Assembly (NCBI GenBank): GCA_022566315.1
Contig: JADFJC010000005.1
Span: forward strand, 18,361 to 82,360
Origin: Planctomycetota bacterium
GTDB taxonomy: Bacteria; Planctomycetota; Phycisphaerae; Sedimentisphaerales; Anaerobacaceae
Direction of reading: 5' to 3'
Length of the DNA: 64,000 nt
Under the pieces are notes generated by a model, which was given only the letters and a program-made list of their open reading frames with translations, was not told where the DNA came from and searched no databases. Shown one piece after another: positions 3,800 through 58,435 of the stretch (positions are counted from its first letter, which is position 1; the number at the start of each line of letters is the position of its first letter). The position numbers and the translations under genes are program-made.

Positions 3800-3985
3800 A
3801 AGACACAAGACTCAAGAGACAAGACTCAGAAGTCAGAAGTCAGAAGATAATTAAGAATGAGTTCATTGTTCATAGTTCGTAGTTCATAGACTAAAAACTA
3901 CGAACGCATAACTACTAACTAAAAAAGTCAGAAGTCAAAGTCTGTCCTCTGTTTTCTGGAGTCTTGAGTCTGAAGTCTGTGTTGT
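3800..3985. repeat. Composite heptad palindromic array
   Basis: CAAGACTC/AGAAGTC units, GTTCATAG/TTCGTAG units, then TCTGTCC/TCTGTTT units between convergent flhB and fliD. Confidence 0.9.
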
Positions 3986-34170: not shown

Positions 34171-34209
34171 CCCAGAAGTCAGCTCTGTCCTCTGCCCTCT
34201 GTCCTATCA
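34171..34209. repeat. Short heptad palindromic array at flgL stop
   Basis: CAGAAGTCAG CTCTGTC CTCTGCC CTCTGTC CTATCA. Confidence 0.8.
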
Positions 34210-38237: not shown

Positions 38238-38396
38238 TTAGTCAGAAGTCAGAAAACGGAGGACGGAAGACATCTCTGTTATCTGTCTTCTGTTATCTGT
38301 CTTCTGTTTTCTGTCATCTGTCATCTGTTTTCTGTTATCTGTCCTCTGTTATCTGTCCTCTGTCATCTGTTTTCTGTCTTCTGTCTTCTGTACTGT
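38238..38396. repeat. Long heptad array (TCTGTNN units), overlaps flgJ 3' end
   Basis: TCTGTTA TCTGTCT TCTGTTA TCTGTCT TCTGTTT TCTGTCA TCTGTCA TCTGTTT ... Confidence 0.95.
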
Positions 38397-42418: not shown

Positions 42419-42436
42419 AATATTGGTCTCCTTATC

Positions 42437-42499
42437 AAATGTCAGATGTCAGTTTTCTGTATTCTGTCCTCTGTCTTCTGTCCTCTGTCTTCTGTATCA
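42437..42499. repeat. Heptad array at flgF stop
   Basis: GTCAGATGTCAG TTTTCTG TATTCTG TCCTCTG TCTTCTG TCCTCTG TCTTCTG TATCA. Confidence 0.92.
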
Positions 42500-44527: not shown

Positions 44528-44622
44528 CCATATTGCATAGTTCGTAGTTCATTGTTTTATAGTTCGTAGTTCATTGTTCATAGTTCGTAGTCTATGAACT
44601 CATAACAATGAACTTTGAACTG
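44528..44622. repeat. Heptad palindromic array (TAGTTCG / TGAACTN)
   Basis: TAGTTCG TAGTTCA TTGTTTT ATAGTTCG TAGTTCA TTGTTCA TAGTTCG TAGTCTA TGAACTC ATAACAA TGAACTT TGAACTG. Confidence 0.93.
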
Positions 44623-47344: not shown

Positions 47345-48868
47345 ATGACTTTACGTAGAATTATTGCACTCAGTAGAGACCCCGAAGTTCAACAACTGGC
47401 TCAGAAGTATGGTCAGGAAGTATTTGGGGCTGACGACCTGGCCGATGCTCTGGATATCGTTCAAACGGTCAAGCCGGATTTAATTCTTTTTGACCATCGG
47501 TTCGGTACGGGTCATATTCGTGAATTCCTCGATAGGGCCGATAAATATTCAACCAATGTTCCCATCGTGGTGGTTGGGGACGATGATGATAACATCGACC
47601 CAGCAACGCTGGGTTCCATACAAAACCCGCCGTTGGCGGGGTCCACAGAGTTTATGCAGGCGGGGGCCTATGACTATCTGAAGGGAAGGCAGGATTACGC
47701 CGGCTTCGAGCAAATTATAAGCAGGATAAAGAATGAATCCGTGTCTCGTGACCCGTGCCTTGTGACCCGAGCAACGAGCGACGAGCGACAAGCGACGGAA
47801 TCAAGTCGTTTCTTTGCTGAGGACCTGGCTTGCTCTGTCTCTATGGTCGGATGCAGTAAAGCGACCCTCGATACTCTCAAAATGATTAAACTTGTGGCTG
47901 CCAGTAGATGCAATCCGATTTTGATACTTGGAGAAACAGGCACAGGCAAAGAGCTGGCTGCTAAGGCGATACATATTTTAAGGCATCCGAACGGGCAATT
48001 TGTAGCTGTAAATTGTGCAGCTCTGACGGCAAATCTGTTGGAAAGCGAGCTTTTCGGTCACGTGAAAGGTTCTTTTACCGGCGCCGACCGTGAGAAAACA
48101 GGACTTTTGGAACTGGCTGAGTCCGGAACACTCTTGCTTGATGAAATAAGTGAGATGCCGTTGGACCTGCAGGCTAAGTTGCTGCGTGTCCTCCAGGAAA
48201 AATGCTTCCGAAAGGTCGGAGGTATCAAAAGTATCGCCTGCAACGCCACGATAATGGCTTCGAGCAATCGCAATCTCAAAAGTGAAGTTCAGGCCAATCG
48301 CTTTCGACGAGACCTTTATTACCGTCTGAATATTTGTCCTATTACTCTCGCTCCTCTTAGGTCACAAGGGCGAAAGCAAGACATCCGGCTATTAACTGAG
48401 TACTTTCTCAAGACCTCAACTATCTGTCCGGACAAGTGCGGTAAGATAACATCACTGACTGAATTAGCTATTGAGGTACTGGAGAAACACGATTGGCCCG
48501 GCAATGTTCGTGAGTTGTGTAACGTCATCGAAAGGGCCATCCTCCTGGAGACAACAGACAAAATCGGGTTAAACGCCATCTATATTGAGCCGACTGAATG
48601 GAATGAGGTATCGAACAGCACAACACCTGGACTCATCAAAGATTTCTCATTGGCAAAGGCTGAGTGCGAGTTGATTGCTCGGGCTTTGCAGAAAACAGGC
48701 TGGCAAAAGACCAGGGCTGCTGCTCTTCTCGGCATAACCAGAGCAACTCTTTACGCCAAGGTCAAGCAGTACAATATCGAAAAAGATCCATATATCGCAG
48801 ACGGCCCCGCAAAACAAGAACAAAACGAAGTTTCATCATCCTTGTCTCAGCCGGTAGTAGCTTCCTGA
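47345..48868 (+). CDS. Sigma-54-dependent NtrC-family activator with degenerate receiver
   Basis: AAA+ 'GETGTGKELAAKAIH', 'ELFGHVKGSFTGADREKTG', C-terminal Fis-type HTH 'GWQKTRAAALLGITRATLYAKVKQY'. Confidence 0.93.
   Translation: MTLRRIIALSRDPEVQQLAQKYGQEVFGADDLADALDIVQTVKPDLILFDHRFGTGHIREFLDRADKYSTNVPIVVVGDDDDNIDPATLGSIQNPPLAGSTEFMQAGAYDYLKGRQDYAGFEQIISRIKNESVSRDPCLVTRATSDERQATESSRFFAEDLACSVSMVGCSKATLDTLKMIKLVAASRCNPILILGETGTGKELAAKAIHILRHPNGQFVAVNCAALTANLLESELFGHVKGSFTGADREKTGLLELAESGTLLLDEISEMPLDLQAKLLRVLQEKCFRKVGGIKSIACNATIMASSNRNLKSEVQANRFRRDLYYRLNICPITLAPLRSQGRKQDIRLLTEYFLKTSTICPDKCGKITSLTELAIEVLEKHDWPGNVRELCNVIERAILLETTDKIGLNAIYIEPTEWNEVSNSTTPGLIKDFSLAKAECELIARALQKTGWQKTRAAALLGITRATLYAKVKQYNIEKDPYIADGPAKQEQNEVSSSLSQPVVAS
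47596..47641 (+). repeat. Double-hairpin palindromic repeat, coding copy A
   Basis: CGACCCAGCAACGCTGGGTTCC-ATACA-AAACCCGCCGTTGGCGGG; near-identical reverse-strand copy at 43479-43526. Confidence 0.95.
47749..47803 (+). repeat. Heptad palindromic array within coding sequence
   Basis: GTGTCTC GTGACCC GTGCCTT GTGACCC GAGCAAC GAGCGAC GAGCGAC AAGCGAC. Confidence 0.9.
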
Positions 48869-49180: not shown

Positions 49181-51718
49181 ATGGCCACAGAAGAACAAAA
49201 AAATGTTCTCCAACAGGATATTTCCGAGGTGCCATCGGAAAGAGAATTATTTACAGGCGAAGTTCGAAGGGAACTCTCGGAGCGAGAAGTGTTTGTTGGA
49301 GACGAAGATTTTTACAAACTTTTGGCGGATTCCACGCCTGCTGATGCAGTTCAATCCGTCACCAGCCAGGCTGGTGCACGGACCAGCGCACGGCGCTCCC
49401 CGCGGGAGTCGATTCGGAATAAGCGTTTTTCGACCCTTCAAAAAGTCCTCATTACTGCCATTATTGTAATTGGTGCAATATTGCTGTATGTGCTGTTGGA
49501 ACCTTTGTTGCGGCCACTTAACAAAATTCCAACACCTGCCGCTCAACAAGCACATCCCTCTGAATTGCAGGTTGAAGATTCCACGCAGGCTGAAGGTTCC
49601 ACACAGGTGGTACAGGAACAAATCCAGGAGCCGGAGCCTTTGTTTCCACCAGCACAACCTCTGTCTTTGGAAGTTGCTCGGAACTTCTATCTGCAAAAGG
49701 ATTACGGTAAGGCTCATGCCGCTTATAACCAGCTTCATCAGAGTCTTCCAGCCGGTGCTAAAGAAGAGCTGCTGAGGGATTTTCTTCAGTTTAAAATGGC
49801 TTTGTGTTTGAGAAAGGCCGGCAATTCCGACCAGGCCGGCCGTTTATTCAGAACACTTTCACAAAGTCGTTCACTTGTCGTCAGAGTGGTTGCAAATTAC
49901 AACCTTAGTTTGCTTCAAGTCCAAAATAAGCAGTACCTCAAAGCGAGAACTAAAGCTTATCAGACGATTGCTTTGCTCAAAGCAGTGGATTTCGACAAGG
50001 ATTGGGCTTTGTCGTTGCAGCCTGATTGCCATTTCCTGGTTGCTGAGTCGATGACCAGAAATATCCTTTCGCTTTGCGATGCCGACACAGACCTTCCAGG
50101 CCGGTTGTGGAGTCACGATTTATCGGGATTCGATGTTGACCCTTTCATCAACTTAAACGATGCCCAATTGCGGGCCCTTTTGAATTCCGGCTCAAAGCAG
50201 TTAAAAGAAGGACTGCTCAGCCCTCGGATTCAGAAGCTCGAACATCAGGGTGTCCCGCCTCGTTGGTCTGTCGTTGCTTATGGGGCTTCGGTTGAAGAGC
50301 TGCTGGCAAGATTCGCTGCAAATGCCGGCCTTGATATTTCCTGGGTACACCACAAGACAACAGCCGCTGGACCAGCAGGGAATGCTATTCGCAAAAGGCC
50401 GGTGAGTTTGTATCTGCCGGCCGCAACCGCCCAGCAGGCAATCGAAGTGGCAGCCGGGCACGTGGGCTTAGTGGCACGTCTCGATGAAAATGGGCTTGTA
50501 AAAATTTCCAACCCGGCTGACTATTCATCATTATCAGAACACGTACATTTGCTTATACAGGACACTATTTCGCTTTGGAGAAAATTTCTACTTACATTCC
50601 ATAACGACCAGCGTATTCCAAACGCTCATTTTGCTCTGGGACTTTTGCACGCTCAGGAGAGCCAGATTATCAATGCTATTGCGGAGTACAAGTTAGTGGC
50701 CAATCACTTTTCACAAACATCTTTGGCGCCGTATGCACTGTTAAATTCGAGCAAACTCAAAGCTAATCTCCATGACTATTCCGGTGCACGAGAGGATTTG
50801 ACACAGCTTGTTGAGCAGTATCCTGATACCGAATTTTACGGCCAGGCATGTTTGAATCTTGCTGATGCAACAAGGAAAGCCGGGGTTTTGAATGGAGCTG
50901 AACGGCTCTATCGCAAAGTTTACAATCTTGGTTTGTCTTTGGAGATGCAGATTGCCTCTGCCCTCGGAGCAGGCAGATGTTCCTATCAGGCCCAGGACTA
51001 CGAAACTGCCGCCAAGTGGCTGACTCAATACCTCAATCTCGCCAAAGACCGCACAGATGCGGACTTCTACTTTGCCTACTTTCTCCTCGGCAAGACCAAC
51101 CTGGCATTAGGAAAGCCGCAGCAGGCTTCCCTTGCTTTTCAATACGCCCTAAGCGGACCGGCAGGGTGTCTTACCAGAGAAAGATATGTGGAGACAGTCT
51201 CAGCTTTAGTTGAGACACAGATACAACTGGAACATTTCGTCGAGGCTCTTGCATTATTAGAGGGTGTACACCCCTGGCAGTTCTCGAAGAAAGAATCTAT
51301 CGAGATATTACTACTCAAGGGCAGAGTTCTCCGTTTTATAGGTTTGTCCGATAAAGCTATTTCATTACTTGGTGACATTGCCGAATATCTGCCTGACTCT
51401 CAGTTGAAAACCAGGGTATCTTTTGAGTTAGTCAACTGCTATATCGCTAAAGGAGATTTGGAATTTGCCCACAAGAAGTTAGCGGAAATTCTTATTAGTG
51501 CTGCCCCCGGACCTTTGGCGCACGAAATGGCTCTCGAATTAGCTGAGGTTTGTTTGAAACTTGGTCAAAACTCTCAAACCGTCTCTGTTTGTTTGCAGCT
51601 TTTGGATTCGGCAGTATCAGCCCGGATAAAGCAAAAAGCCTTAAAGGTGCTGGCAGCCGCGTATAACCGGCAGAAAAAGTATGACGATGCAGCATTAGCT
51701 CTTTTGGGTCAATGGTAA
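49181..51718 (+). CDS. Large TPR membrane protein; ORF track start 49073, ATG at 49181 preferred because 49085-49160 looks like a repeat-filled 5' UTR
   Basis: TM segment 'VLITAIIVIGAILLYVLLEPLL' followed by many TPR-like helical pairs. Confidence 0.75.
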   Translation: MATEEQKNVLQQDISEVPSERELFTGEVRRELSEREVFVGDEDFYKLLADSTPADAVQSVTSQAGARTSARRSPRESIRNKRFSTLQKVLITAIIVIGAILLYVLLEPLLRPLNKIPTPAAQQAHPSELQVEDSTQAEGSTQVVQEQIQEPEPLFPPAQPLSLEVARNFYLQKDYGKAHAAYNQLHQSLPAGAKEELLRDFLQFKMALCLRKAGNSDQAGRLFRTLSQSRSLVVRVVANYNLSLLQVQNKQYLKARTKAYQTIALLKAVDFDKDWALSLQPDCHFLVAESMTRNILSLCDADTDLPGRLWSHDLSGFDVDPFINLNDAQLRALLNSGSKQLKEGLLSPRIQKLEHQGVPPRWSVVAYGASVEELLARFAANAGLDISWVHHKTTAAGPAGNAIRKRPVSLYLPAATAQQAIEVAAGHVGLVARLDENGLVKISNPADYSSLSEHVHLLIQDTISLWRKFLLTFHNDQRIPNAHFALGLLHAQESQIINAIAEYKLVANHFSQTSLAPYALLNSSKLKANLHDYSGAREDLTQLVEQYPDTEFYGQACLNLADATRKAGVLNGAERLYRKVYNLGLSLEMQIASALGAGRCSYQAQDYETAAKWLTQYLNLAKDRTDADFYFAYFLLGKTNLALGKPQQASLAFQYALSGPAGCLTRERYVETVSALVETQIQLEHFVEALALLEGVHPWQFSKKESIEILLLKGRVLRFIGLSDKAISLLGDIAEYLPDSQLKTRVSFELVNCYIAKGDLEFAHKKLAEILISAAPGPLAHEMALELAEVCLKLGQNSQTVSVCLQLLDSAVSARIKQKALKVLAAAYNRQKKYDDAALALLGQW
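49360..49408 (+). repeat. Double-hairpin palindrome in coding linker
   Basis: CACCAGCC-A-GGCTGGTG and CTCCC-CGC-GGGAG, encoding the Arg/Ser linker before the TM helix. Confidence 0.6.
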
Positions 51719-51723
51719 TGATA

Positions 51724-52500
51724 ATGAAAAATAAGAAGTCTATCGGTTATTGGTTATTGGAATTCAGATGTCAGATTTTCTGTCTTCTGTTTTCTGTCTT
51801 CTGTTTTCTGACTTACTCTGCTGCTGCGGTTGGCCAAAAATCGCCGCAGAGCGCTTTTCTTGCTCCGCCGGACCCAAATAATAACTTCAGACGACAATTG
51901 TGGCGGGCTGAGCTTAGCATTGCTAAAGACGAAAAGGATAAAGGAACAAAAAATGAGCTTAAGCGAATAATCGAACAAATTCGCTCTATTAAATTTGAGT
52001 CCCGGAAGGAAATCTTTGAGCCTGTTATTGTCCCCGAGGCGGTGCTGATAGATGAGCCTAATGAAGCTGTATCCGAGACGAAAGAACAAGAGAAAAACCA
52101 AATCGAACCCAAACTGCAATACGAGCCGATAACCGGCAAAACTTTACAATTAATCAAGAACCTCTCGCAGCATCTTGACAATCTGCGCAACTCTTTTGAG
52201 CTGGGAGAGACCTTGTTTCTCAGCGGAAATCTAAAGGAAGCTGCAATATTTTACCGGGAAGCTCTTAAACGTAAAAGTCCGGATGACGTCGGCTCAGCTC
52301 AGGACAGAGACTGGATCTTATTTCAGATAGGCAACTGCCTGCGGAATGACGACCCGCCCACGGCAATAAAGACGTACGGACAAGTAATTATAGGGTACCC
52401 CAATTCGCCGTGGAAGGAATTAGCCGAAGCCCGGAGCAAATTGCTCGATTGGTACTTAACAGACAAACCACGTGAGTTAATTGCAGAACACAAACGGTAG
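51724..52500 (+). CDS. Exported TPR-like protein; ATG at 51724 preferred, ORF track start 51712
   Basis: Signal peptide then helical repeat region 'LGETLFLSGNLKEAAIFYREALKR'. Confidence 0.65.
   Translation: MKNKKSIGYWLLEFRCQIFCLLFSVFCFLTYSAAAVGQKSPQSAFLAPPDPNNNFRRQLWRAELSIAKDEKDKGTKNELKRIIEQIRSIKFESRKEIFEPVIVPEAVLIDEPNEAVSETKEQEKNQIEPKLQYEPITGKTLQLIKNLSQHLDNLRNSFELGETLFLSGNLKEAAIFYREALKRKSPDDVGSAQDRDWILFQIGNCLRNDDPPTAIKTYGQVIIGYPNSPWKELAEARSKLLDWYLTDKPRELIAEHKR
51743..51812 (+). repeat. Heptad array inside coding sequence forming the signal peptide core
   Basis: GGTTATT GGTTATT GG... and TTCTGTC TTCTGTT TTCTGTC TTCTGTT TTCTGAC. Confidence 0.9.
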
Positions 52501-52521: not shown

Positions 52522-54042
52522 GTGAGTAAGGCCGAAATAAACAACCTCAGCAATGGCAAACAAGAAGATATCGCGAATGTATTGATAGCTGATAACGACT
52601 CTGAGCTGGCTCGGTTTATGCTTGAGATATTGGCTCGCAAAGGAATACGCGGGCATCTTGCCAACGATAAAGACAGTGCGATTGACTTTATTAACAAAGG
52701 TAGTTGCGACCTTGTATTCACCGGTGACAGAATAAACCGGCGGGCAAACTTGTCCAGACGACCGCAGGATGGTTTTGAACTGCTTGAGAAAATCAAGGCG
52801 AATTGGCCGGAACTACCGGTGATTATGATAACAGAGGCTAAAAACCGAAGCCCGAAAAACCAGCAGCGAACTATTGAGACAGCAGTCAGGGCCGTTCGAC
52901 AGGGCTGTTGTGATTTCCTAATCAAGCCGCTCGACTGTGAAAAAATAGAGACACTGTTGGATACTTTCCTGCCTAACCACAGCGTCTCAACGATAGATTC
53001 GGCTTACGAGGACACCCGCTGCCTTTATAGGATTGTGGGCAGAAGTGCGAAACTCGTTCAAACCGTCGAATTGGCTAAAAGAATCGCTCCCACCTCAGCA
53101 CCGGTTTTAATAAGTGGTGAAAGTGGGACAGGCAAGGAGCTGCTCTCTTATCTTGTCCATCAAAAAAGCAAAAGAGCACATGCTTCGTATATCAAAATCA
53201 ATTGTGCTGCATTAAGTGATTCGCTCCTCGAAAGCGAGCTGTTCGGTCATGAAAAAGGTGCCTTCACCGGTGCCTACACTCAGCGCAAAGGCCGATTCGA
53301 AATGGCGCACGGTGGAACTTTGCTCCTGGATGAGATTGCTGAAACACCCATAAGGTTTCAGGCCAAGCTGTTGCGAGTGCTCGAACAGCAGGATTTTGAA
53401 CGGGTTGGCGGAAATGAAATTGTTAAAGTCGATGTTCGAATAGTAAGTACTACAAATAAGGATTTATTACAGGAAGTTCAGCAGGGACGGTTCCGTCAGG
53501 ACCTTTATTATCGGTTAAGCGGCGTAAGATTAGTGGCCTGTCCTCTCAGAGAACGCAAAGATGACTTATATGACCTCGTGTGGTATTTTGTCAACCTTTA
53601 CGCTCGCGAAGTACAGCGTCGTATCACTAAGCTTGATTCTGCCATGATGGACATTTTTGCCAAATACCACTGGCCCGGAAATGTCCGCCAATTGCGAAAT
53701 GTTGTACGAACTTCGCTGATTTTGGGAGTTGGACAGACACTGTCATTAGCTGATGTCTCCTGGCTCTTTGATGAATTACAACCACTTCCACAGGAGAGTC
53801 CGTCGTCAGTCGTCAGTCGCCTGTCATCCGTCGAACAAGAGACGAGAGACGAGCGACGAGAGACGAAAACAGACCTCGGAGGAGTATCGCTTGAACAGGT
53901 GGAAAGGCGAGCAATTTTGGATACTTTACGCCAGACAGGAGGCAACCAGACCAAGGCCGCAAAGGTCTTGGGCATCAGTGACCGAACGTTGCGCGATAGG
54001 ATACATCGCTATCGCAGACAGGGTTGCCTGCAGTTGGCATAG
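52522..54042 (+). CDS. Sigma-54-dependent NtrC-family activator (FlrC/FleR-like role inferred)
   Basis: 'GESGTGKELLSYLVH', 'ELFGHEKGAFTGAYTQRKG', C-term HTH 'GGNQTKAAKVLGISDRTLRDRIHRYRRQG'. Confidence 0.94.
   Translation: MSKAEINNLSNGKQEDIANVLIADNDSELARFMLEILARKGIRGHLANDKDSAIDFINKGSCDLVFTGDRINRRANLSRRPQDGFELLEKIKANWPELPVIMITEAKNRSPKNQQRTIETAVRAVRQGCCDFLIKPLDCEKIETLLDTFLPNHSVSTIDSAYEDTRCLYRIVGRSAKLVQTVELAKRIAPTSAPVLISGESGTGKELLSYLVHQKSKRAHASYIKINCAALSDSLLESELFGHEKGAFTGAYTQRKGRFEMAHGGTLLLDEIAETPIRFQAKLLRVLEQQDFERVGGNEIVKVDVRIVSTTNKDLLQEVQQGRFRQDLYYRLSGVRLVACPLRERKDDLYDLVWYFVNLYAREVQRRITKLDSAMMDIFAKYHWPGNVRQLRNVVRTSLILGVGQTLSLADVSWLFDELQPLPQESPSSVVSRLSSVEQETRDERRETKTDLGGVSLEQVERRAILDTLRQTGGNQTKAAKVLGISDRTLRDRIHRYRRQGCLQLA
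53800..53873 (+). repeat. Heptad palindromic array in coding linker
   Basis: GTCGTCA GTCGTCA GTCGCCT GTCATCC GTCGAAC | AAGAGAC GAGAGAC GAGCGAC GAGAGAC GAAAACA. Confidence 0.92.
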
Positions 54043-58336: not shown

Positions 58337-58411
58337 TAAAGTCAGAAAACAGAAGACAGAAAACAGAGGACAGAAAACAGACATCTGACTTCTGACTTCT
58401 GACCTCTGACA
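58337..58411. repeat. Heptad palindromic array (AAACAGA / CTTCTGA)
   Basis: AGTCAGA AAACAGA AGACAGA AAACAGA GGACAGA AAACAGA | CATCTGA CTTCTGA CTTCTGA CCTCTGA CATCTAA after flhA stop. Confidence 0.95.
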
Positions 58412-58435
58412 TCTAATTAATATGGGATACGAATT

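Follow-up and report, generated by a model that had tools for sequence, protein, structure and literature searches.

The window analysed here, a stretch of 64,000 nucleotides, comes from the metagenome-assembled genome of an uncultured planctomycete, 4.2 Mb in size (G000:C150:18361-82360; this genome is G000 in the following), and the assemblies with which it was compared are also metagenomic. A flagellar cluster in the window has the order TPR protein, small TPR protein, sigma-54 regulator, FliL and FliM/FliN. The small TPR-like protein is encoded at 51724–52500 on the forward strand; its TPR matches are weak and lie under the Pfam cut-offs, and the name "TPR protein" for this product is fair but weak. 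The reading frame is open from an ATG at 51712, and further in-frame ATGs are found at 51718 and 51724. Because the last of these, in the context ATG-AAA-AAT, is the ATG present in all five congeners compared, the probable signal peptide MKNKKSIGYWLLEFRCQIFCLLFSVFCFLTYSAAA was assigned to 51724–51828 (+), based on its sequence, its hydropathy and the hydrophobic N-terminus of the orthologues described below. In composition, this segment matches what is expected of a Sec signal peptide, which has a positive n-region, some 10–15 hydrophobic residues as its core and small residues at -3 and -1: it starts with MKNKK, contains the core IFCLLFSVFCFL with a mean hydropathy of 2.96, and carries SAAA directly ahead of the inferred cleavage point. 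The best 12-residue hydropathy is likewise 2.96, six residues ahead of that point, and the n-region is long, with one Glu. From composition and conservation, residues 1–35 are predicted to act as a Sec signal.

An earlier note on this DNA had claimed that the N-terminus is encoded by heptad repeats, and the sequence and peptide that it quoted were found as described; Tandem Repeats Finder and codon nulls agree with it. Codons 7–29 lie largely on heptad DNA, which runs from 2.9 copies of TATTGGT through TCAGATGTCAGA to about 4.6 copies of TCTGTCT/TCTGTTT. The TATTGGT heptads, of the TTGGTTA family, occupy 51741–51760 (+), where Tandem Repeats Finder also reports them (2.9 copies); they encode IGYWLL, and related heptads are present in all five congeners. 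The left arm of a two-armed heptad element, TCAGATGTCAGA, follows at 51764–51775 (+) and encodes FRCQ, so that the less hydrophobic stretch EFRCQ of the peptide corresponds to this arm. The right arm, TCTGTCTTCTGTTTTCTGTCTTCTGTTTTCTG, belongs to the TCTGTNN family, occupies 51779–51810 (+) and encodes the hydrophobic core FCLLFSVFCFL; Tandem Repeats Finder reports TTTTCTGTCTTCTG here, with 2.8 copies and 96% matches, at 51776–51814. The two arms stand in the order TCAGATGTCAGA-TTT-TCTGTCT at 51764–51785. The signal-peptide codons thus hold a tandem repeat whose unit is not a triplet, and its TCTGTNN units belong to a family that is amplified in this genome. Moreover, another array, located on contig C5, contains an identical copy of the stretch TCAGATGTCAGATTTTCTGTC.

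In the codon null, the protein was held fixed and its codons were redrawn 20,000 times from genome usage, each draw being scored at lags 7 and 14. The observed score of 22 was reached in 0 of the 20,000 draws, and in 4 of 20,000 when codon usage was taken from N-terminal hydrophobic segments only. This null is conservative because the peptide is already heptad-periodic. At the control lags 5, 6, 8–13, 15 and 16, the score of the same stretch was at most 4.

The TCTGTNN family is distributed unevenly among the genomes, with 437 overlapping matches (231+206) in G000 and 55 (25+30) in the closest congener, G003, and it is nearly absent from G001, G002, G004 and G005 (0–3 matches); this agrees with which species use TCTGTNN in the signal peptide. 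A CAGA-type arm lies no more than 30 nt upstream of 24 of 41 TCTG arrays and downstream of none of the 41, against a background probability of 0.025. Given this strict CAGA-then-TCTG polarity, pairing between the arms would give a hairpin that is imperfect, each heptad holding one mismatch. When whole genomes were searched for the two-armed pattern (GTCAGA, 1–16 nt, TCTGTNNTCTGT), overlapping matches were obtained in G000 (45+57), G003 (16+20) and G028 (2+2), the signal-peptide copies of both G000 and G003 being among them. The same whole-genome search gave no match in G001, G004, G005, G006 or G026, and the reversed control pattern gave none either. The signal peptide of G000 and G003 thus holds one copy of a dispersed element, which is more than a local microsatellite.

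Heptads are abundant in G000 beyond this family. Lag-7 and lag-14 segments reach 5–6 per 100 kb, compared with 0–0.84 at lags that are not multiples of 7 and 2.77 at lag 21. In 831 kb of G000, 74 arrays with many unit families were found, most of them outside predicted genes, though 85% of this sample is called coding. The heptad excess is much weaker in the samples of G005 and G006, and heptad density is near background in the congeners G004 and G005. As a separate observation, a sample of G028 (L139-L158) holds 10.5 lag-7 segments per 100 kb, as high as G000, mostly of other unit families.

Several further arrays lie in the window. The array that the earlier note had placed at 38238 and assigned to the same TCTGTNN family is indeed of that family: it is an intergenic two-armed array at 38240–38391 (+), with a CAGA-type arm at 38240–38254 followed by TCTGTNN units at 38275–38391. 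It constitutes extra DNA relative to congener G005, with about 162 nt against about 20 nt between the flanking matches. A second two-armed array of this family, also intergenic, lies in the opposite orientation at 58339–58414 and is 28 nt (four units) longer in congener G003. Turnover of the heptad family at this 58.3 kb site was suspected by eye; the lag-7 identity in the congeners is slightly raised (shuffling p 0.03–0.13), and turnover is not claimed. Additional heptad arrays are found at 1869–1928, 3800–3889, 34183–34205, 42435–42495, 44536–44591 and 47768–47797, with units of the CAGAAGT/TCTGTCC, AAGACAC, AGTTCAT and CGAGCGA families; that at 47768 lies inside a predicted gene and is read as RATSDERQAT.

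Heptads also occur inside the neighbouring sigma-54 regulator gene, at 53798–53866 (+), where they encode the charged linker SPSSVVSR...QETRDERRETK. Part of this linker, which precedes the HTH, is heptad-coded in both G000 and G003; in the other congeners the linker differs. In G003, the regulator (L031) carries an extra in-frame stretch, CGTGFQPVKTRPRWPCHT, within the heptad-bearing linker and, close to the N-terminus, GKTPFVAGAGKQ in place of the GKQ of G000; both look like small in-frame insertions.

To place the signal peptide among its relatives, orthologues within and beyond the genus were compared. A hydrophobic N-terminal segment, with an 11-residue hydropathy of about 2 or more, is present in all 29 orthologues examined. 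The signal looks older than the repeat, because these orthologues include members of genera without heptads, and the element appears to have rebuilt the signal peptide rather than created it. De novo birth of the signal from the repeat was rejected on the same observation. The earlier note's view that the signal peptide as such was made from the repeat is therefore not supported; its narrower statement, that the hydrophobic core is repeat-born, holds insofar as the codons of the core belong to one copy of a dispersed heptad family specific to the genome.

Within the genus, all five orthologues found (G000, G003, G004, G005 and G001) carry heptads, three of them from other families, so that relatives sharing the peptide without repeat-like codons, which the note had named as evidence against it, were not encountered there. 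The signal peptides of G000 and G003 both use TCTGTNN, are of equal length and differ by the two exchanges F to S and T to A. In G004, G005 and G001, the TTGGTTR array is longer, and CCATTTT-like units come after it (p 0.0015–0.005, hydrophobic-window test). Between G000/G003 and the congeners with other heptads, the length of the region differs by only 3 nt; simple net insertion is thus not seen, and replacement or conversion would be needed, in a comparison that is unrooted within the genus. Strict searches for TTGGTTA and CCATTTT arrays gave almost none elsewhere in G001, G004 and G005, and for this reason no dispersed source is claimed for these three.

In other genera, the core of the same protein is encoded by a TTACTTC array in G026 (4 of 20,000 draws) and by a CGCTTTT array in G028 (1 of 20,000). 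TTACTTC also occurs at several other G026 loci, while the strict CGCTTTT pattern is found in G028 only at the signal peptide, though G028 is heptad-rich overall. Three further orthologues, L014, L007 and L008, are heptad-like by look and fail p<0.01 in the hydrophobic-window test. At this threshold, heptad coding was found in 7 of 29 orthologues, or about 4 of 26 lineages. Other hydrophobic N-termini are rarely heptad-coded, with 1/190 in G000, 0/88 in G005, 0/109 in G006, 0/82 in G028 and 0/49 in G004. The contrast between about 4/26 lineages and about 1/517 other N-termini gives a Fisher p of ~2e-5, with a base rate that is underestimated, perhaps twofold, as the survey sampled the G004 and G005 orthologues without flagging them; start miscalls by the simple gene finder or stricter sampling are the probable cause. 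The presence of different heptad families at the same site in several lineages is, to us, the most interesting point, and it is beyond the reach of a single-sequence reading.

The arithmetic of a seven-base unit bears on how such repeats can be read. As computed for 16 units, a perfect heptad array gives the same cyclic heptapeptide in all three frames, because 7 = 1 mod 3 and the triplet reading returns every 21 bases. The mean hydropathies of these heptapeptides are 2.2 for TCTGTCT (SVFCLLS), 2.6 for TCTGTTT (SVFCFLF), 2.5 for TTGGTTG (LVVGCWL) and 1.6 for TTACTTC (LLLTSYF), whereas the reverse strand of TCTGTCT encodes the charged RQKTEDR, with a mean hydropathy of -3.4. Whatever the frame, a T-rich array thus yields a hydrophobic core and an A-rich array yields a charged linker. 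The linker of the sigma-54 regulator fits the A-rich case. The same arithmetic offers a possible reason why arrays of heptads can be taken up into genes irrespective of frame, with the property of the product set by the strand alone.

Based on these observations, we consider it likely that a copy of a dispersed two-armed element lies in pre-existing signal-peptide codons and supplies their hydrophobic core in whatever frame it is read. The element, (GTCAGAN)n-(TCTGTNN)m, would have multiplied in the lineage of G000 and its closest congener, and one copy would have landed in, or overwritten, the codons of the older signal with the T-rich strand as sense. Such an insertion would bring a ready-made hydrophobic core in any frame, since SVFCLLS and SVFCFLF are strongly hydrophobic and contain no stops, and the only task left to selection would have been to retain a number of copies that preserves the reading frame downstream. 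Direct observation covers the repeat with its family and its distribution, the conservation of the start codon, the hydrophobic N-terminus of all orthologues examined and the presence of other heptads at this site in some relatives; the Sec role of the peptide, insertion or conversion as the mechanism and selection on copy number are what we infer from them.

An alternative is that the array grew in place by slippage, starting from the T-rich codons of the ancestral signal peptide and without any contribution from a dispersed element. Hydrophobic codons rich in T could readily seed slippage, and in G001, G004 and G005 the strict forms of CCATTTT and TTGGTTA are almost absent away from the signal peptide, in keeping with local growth. 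Nevertheless, the signal peptide of G000 and G003 has the left as well as the right arm of the dispersed element, and 21 nt of it recur at another locus, which makes slippage unlikely here; this case is confined to G000/G003 and does not reach the other congeners or G028.

The heptads could also be kept as a phase-variation switch in which slipped-strand mispairing turns the protein on and off. In Neisseria opa, CTCTT repeats in the leader-peptide codons drive high-frequency phase variation (PMC3960869, PMC5354566), and the present array is likewise a tandem repeat inside signal (leader) peptide codons whose unit is not a multiple of three. By computation, gain or loss of one or two heptads in the signal peptide cuts the protein at 26–54 aa, and three restore the frame. 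However, unlike the opa pentamer, the heptad belongs to a dispersed genome family, its array is short and imperfect, with TCTGTCT and TCTGTTT units alternating, and its length is the same in G000 and G003, while the intergenic 58339–58414 array changed by four units between them. A switch of this kind is accordingly improbable. The constant length fits purifying selection on the heptad copy number, because changes of one or two heptads truncate the protein, although this support is thin, coming from one species pair.

Composition and chance form a third reading, in which T-rich Phe, Leu, Cys and Ser codons happen to look heptad-like. Signal peptides are rich in T-rich codons, and two weaker orthologues, L004 and L005, reach only p ~0.006–0.012 in the signal-peptide codon null, so that chance is possible for single weaker orthologues. 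For G000/G003 it is disfavoured: the 0–4 of 20,000 draws under the codon nulls, the match to a genome-specific dispersed family in two-armed form and the rarity of heptad coding in other hydrophobic N-termini leave it a very small probability. That the true start lies downstream, leaving the array as a 5′ untranslated element, is scarcely credible, since the ATG-AAA-AAT upstream of the array is conserved in five congeners, the next in-frame start past it is a TTG within the conserved RRQLW motif, and every orthologue keeps an open, hydrophobic N-terminus, even though other bacteria, Beggiatoaceae among them, are known to have heptamer arrays ahead of genes (PMC4679880). Translation very probably starts upstream of the array.

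The dispersed heptad element preferred here can be set beside other small repeats. Rickettsia palindromic elements, likewise small and dispersed, have inserted into protein-coding genes without breaking the frame; they are longer and palindromic, unlike the heptad arrays, and we know of no report of them as signal-peptide cores. A parallel is provided by the TAACTGA heptamers of Beggiatoaceae, cyanobacteria and Bacteroidetes, which form dispersed 7-bp arrays that are mostly intergenic, with some inside ORFs near protein ends, and of which one strand encodes the repeating heptapeptide LSVISYQ while the other gives stops (MacGregor 2015, PMC4679880). The arrays of G000 are similarly dispersed, mostly intergenic and in some cases in ORFs. 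In contrast, the unit TAACTGA is absent at the signal peptide, where the units are TCTGTNN, GTCAGAN and TATTGGT; the part of that source covered here describes neither a two-armed form nor a signal-peptide core, and it reports related heptamers as rare, whereas G000 has many heptad families (PMC4679880). The heptameric repeats of Xanthomonas and Nostoc (a cyanobacterium) are scattered 7-bp tandems that are under-represented in coding DNA, but their units differ, being G-rich and quadruplex-forming with four copies preferred (PMC4692102).

Tandem repeats in DNA are also known to create new protein segments, as the heptads do here. The coding repeats of Borgs have units divisible by three, unlike the heptad, and mostly give disordered regions (PMC9879509), and expansion of lysine-rich repeats in Plasmodium can create new localisation signals that act in the host cell (PMC5207086). 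In the literature covered, which is partial, neither heptads in planctomycetes nor the supply of a signal-peptide core by a dispersed heptad element was found described. The locus offers a concrete case of dispersed repeats becoming what is probably a functional part of a protein, and in sister species this site is found in alternative states; the different heptads in some relatives make it appear that dispersed repeats have supplied a working protein part more than once. As a more tentative reading, which we hold somewhat short of even confidence, non-triplet heptads may repeatedly and independently have rebuilt the signal peptide of the same protein in a planctomycete family, with a different heptad family in each lineage; frame-blind coding would then make heptads a recurrent source of hydrophobic targeting segments, the opposite orientation supplying charged linkers.

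Two further observations were made alongside. At L035:7775-12097, a predicted protein of 1441 aa starts with MSNTALVARRSSLVARVTGHESRVTEKLLGFLMLFVVCSVGIAEA; provided that this start is correct, the n-region of what looks like its signal peptide is coded by heptads of the CTCGTCG and CACGAGT types. Furthermore, the G028 orthologue of the small TPR protein (L157:16502-17719) has an extra segment in the TPR region, at residues ~313–345, whose matches at other places in G028, G026, G098, G099 and G070 are open frames that are short or frames that contain stops; it is a further type of dispersed repeat, distinct from the heptads, that has entered this gene in frame.
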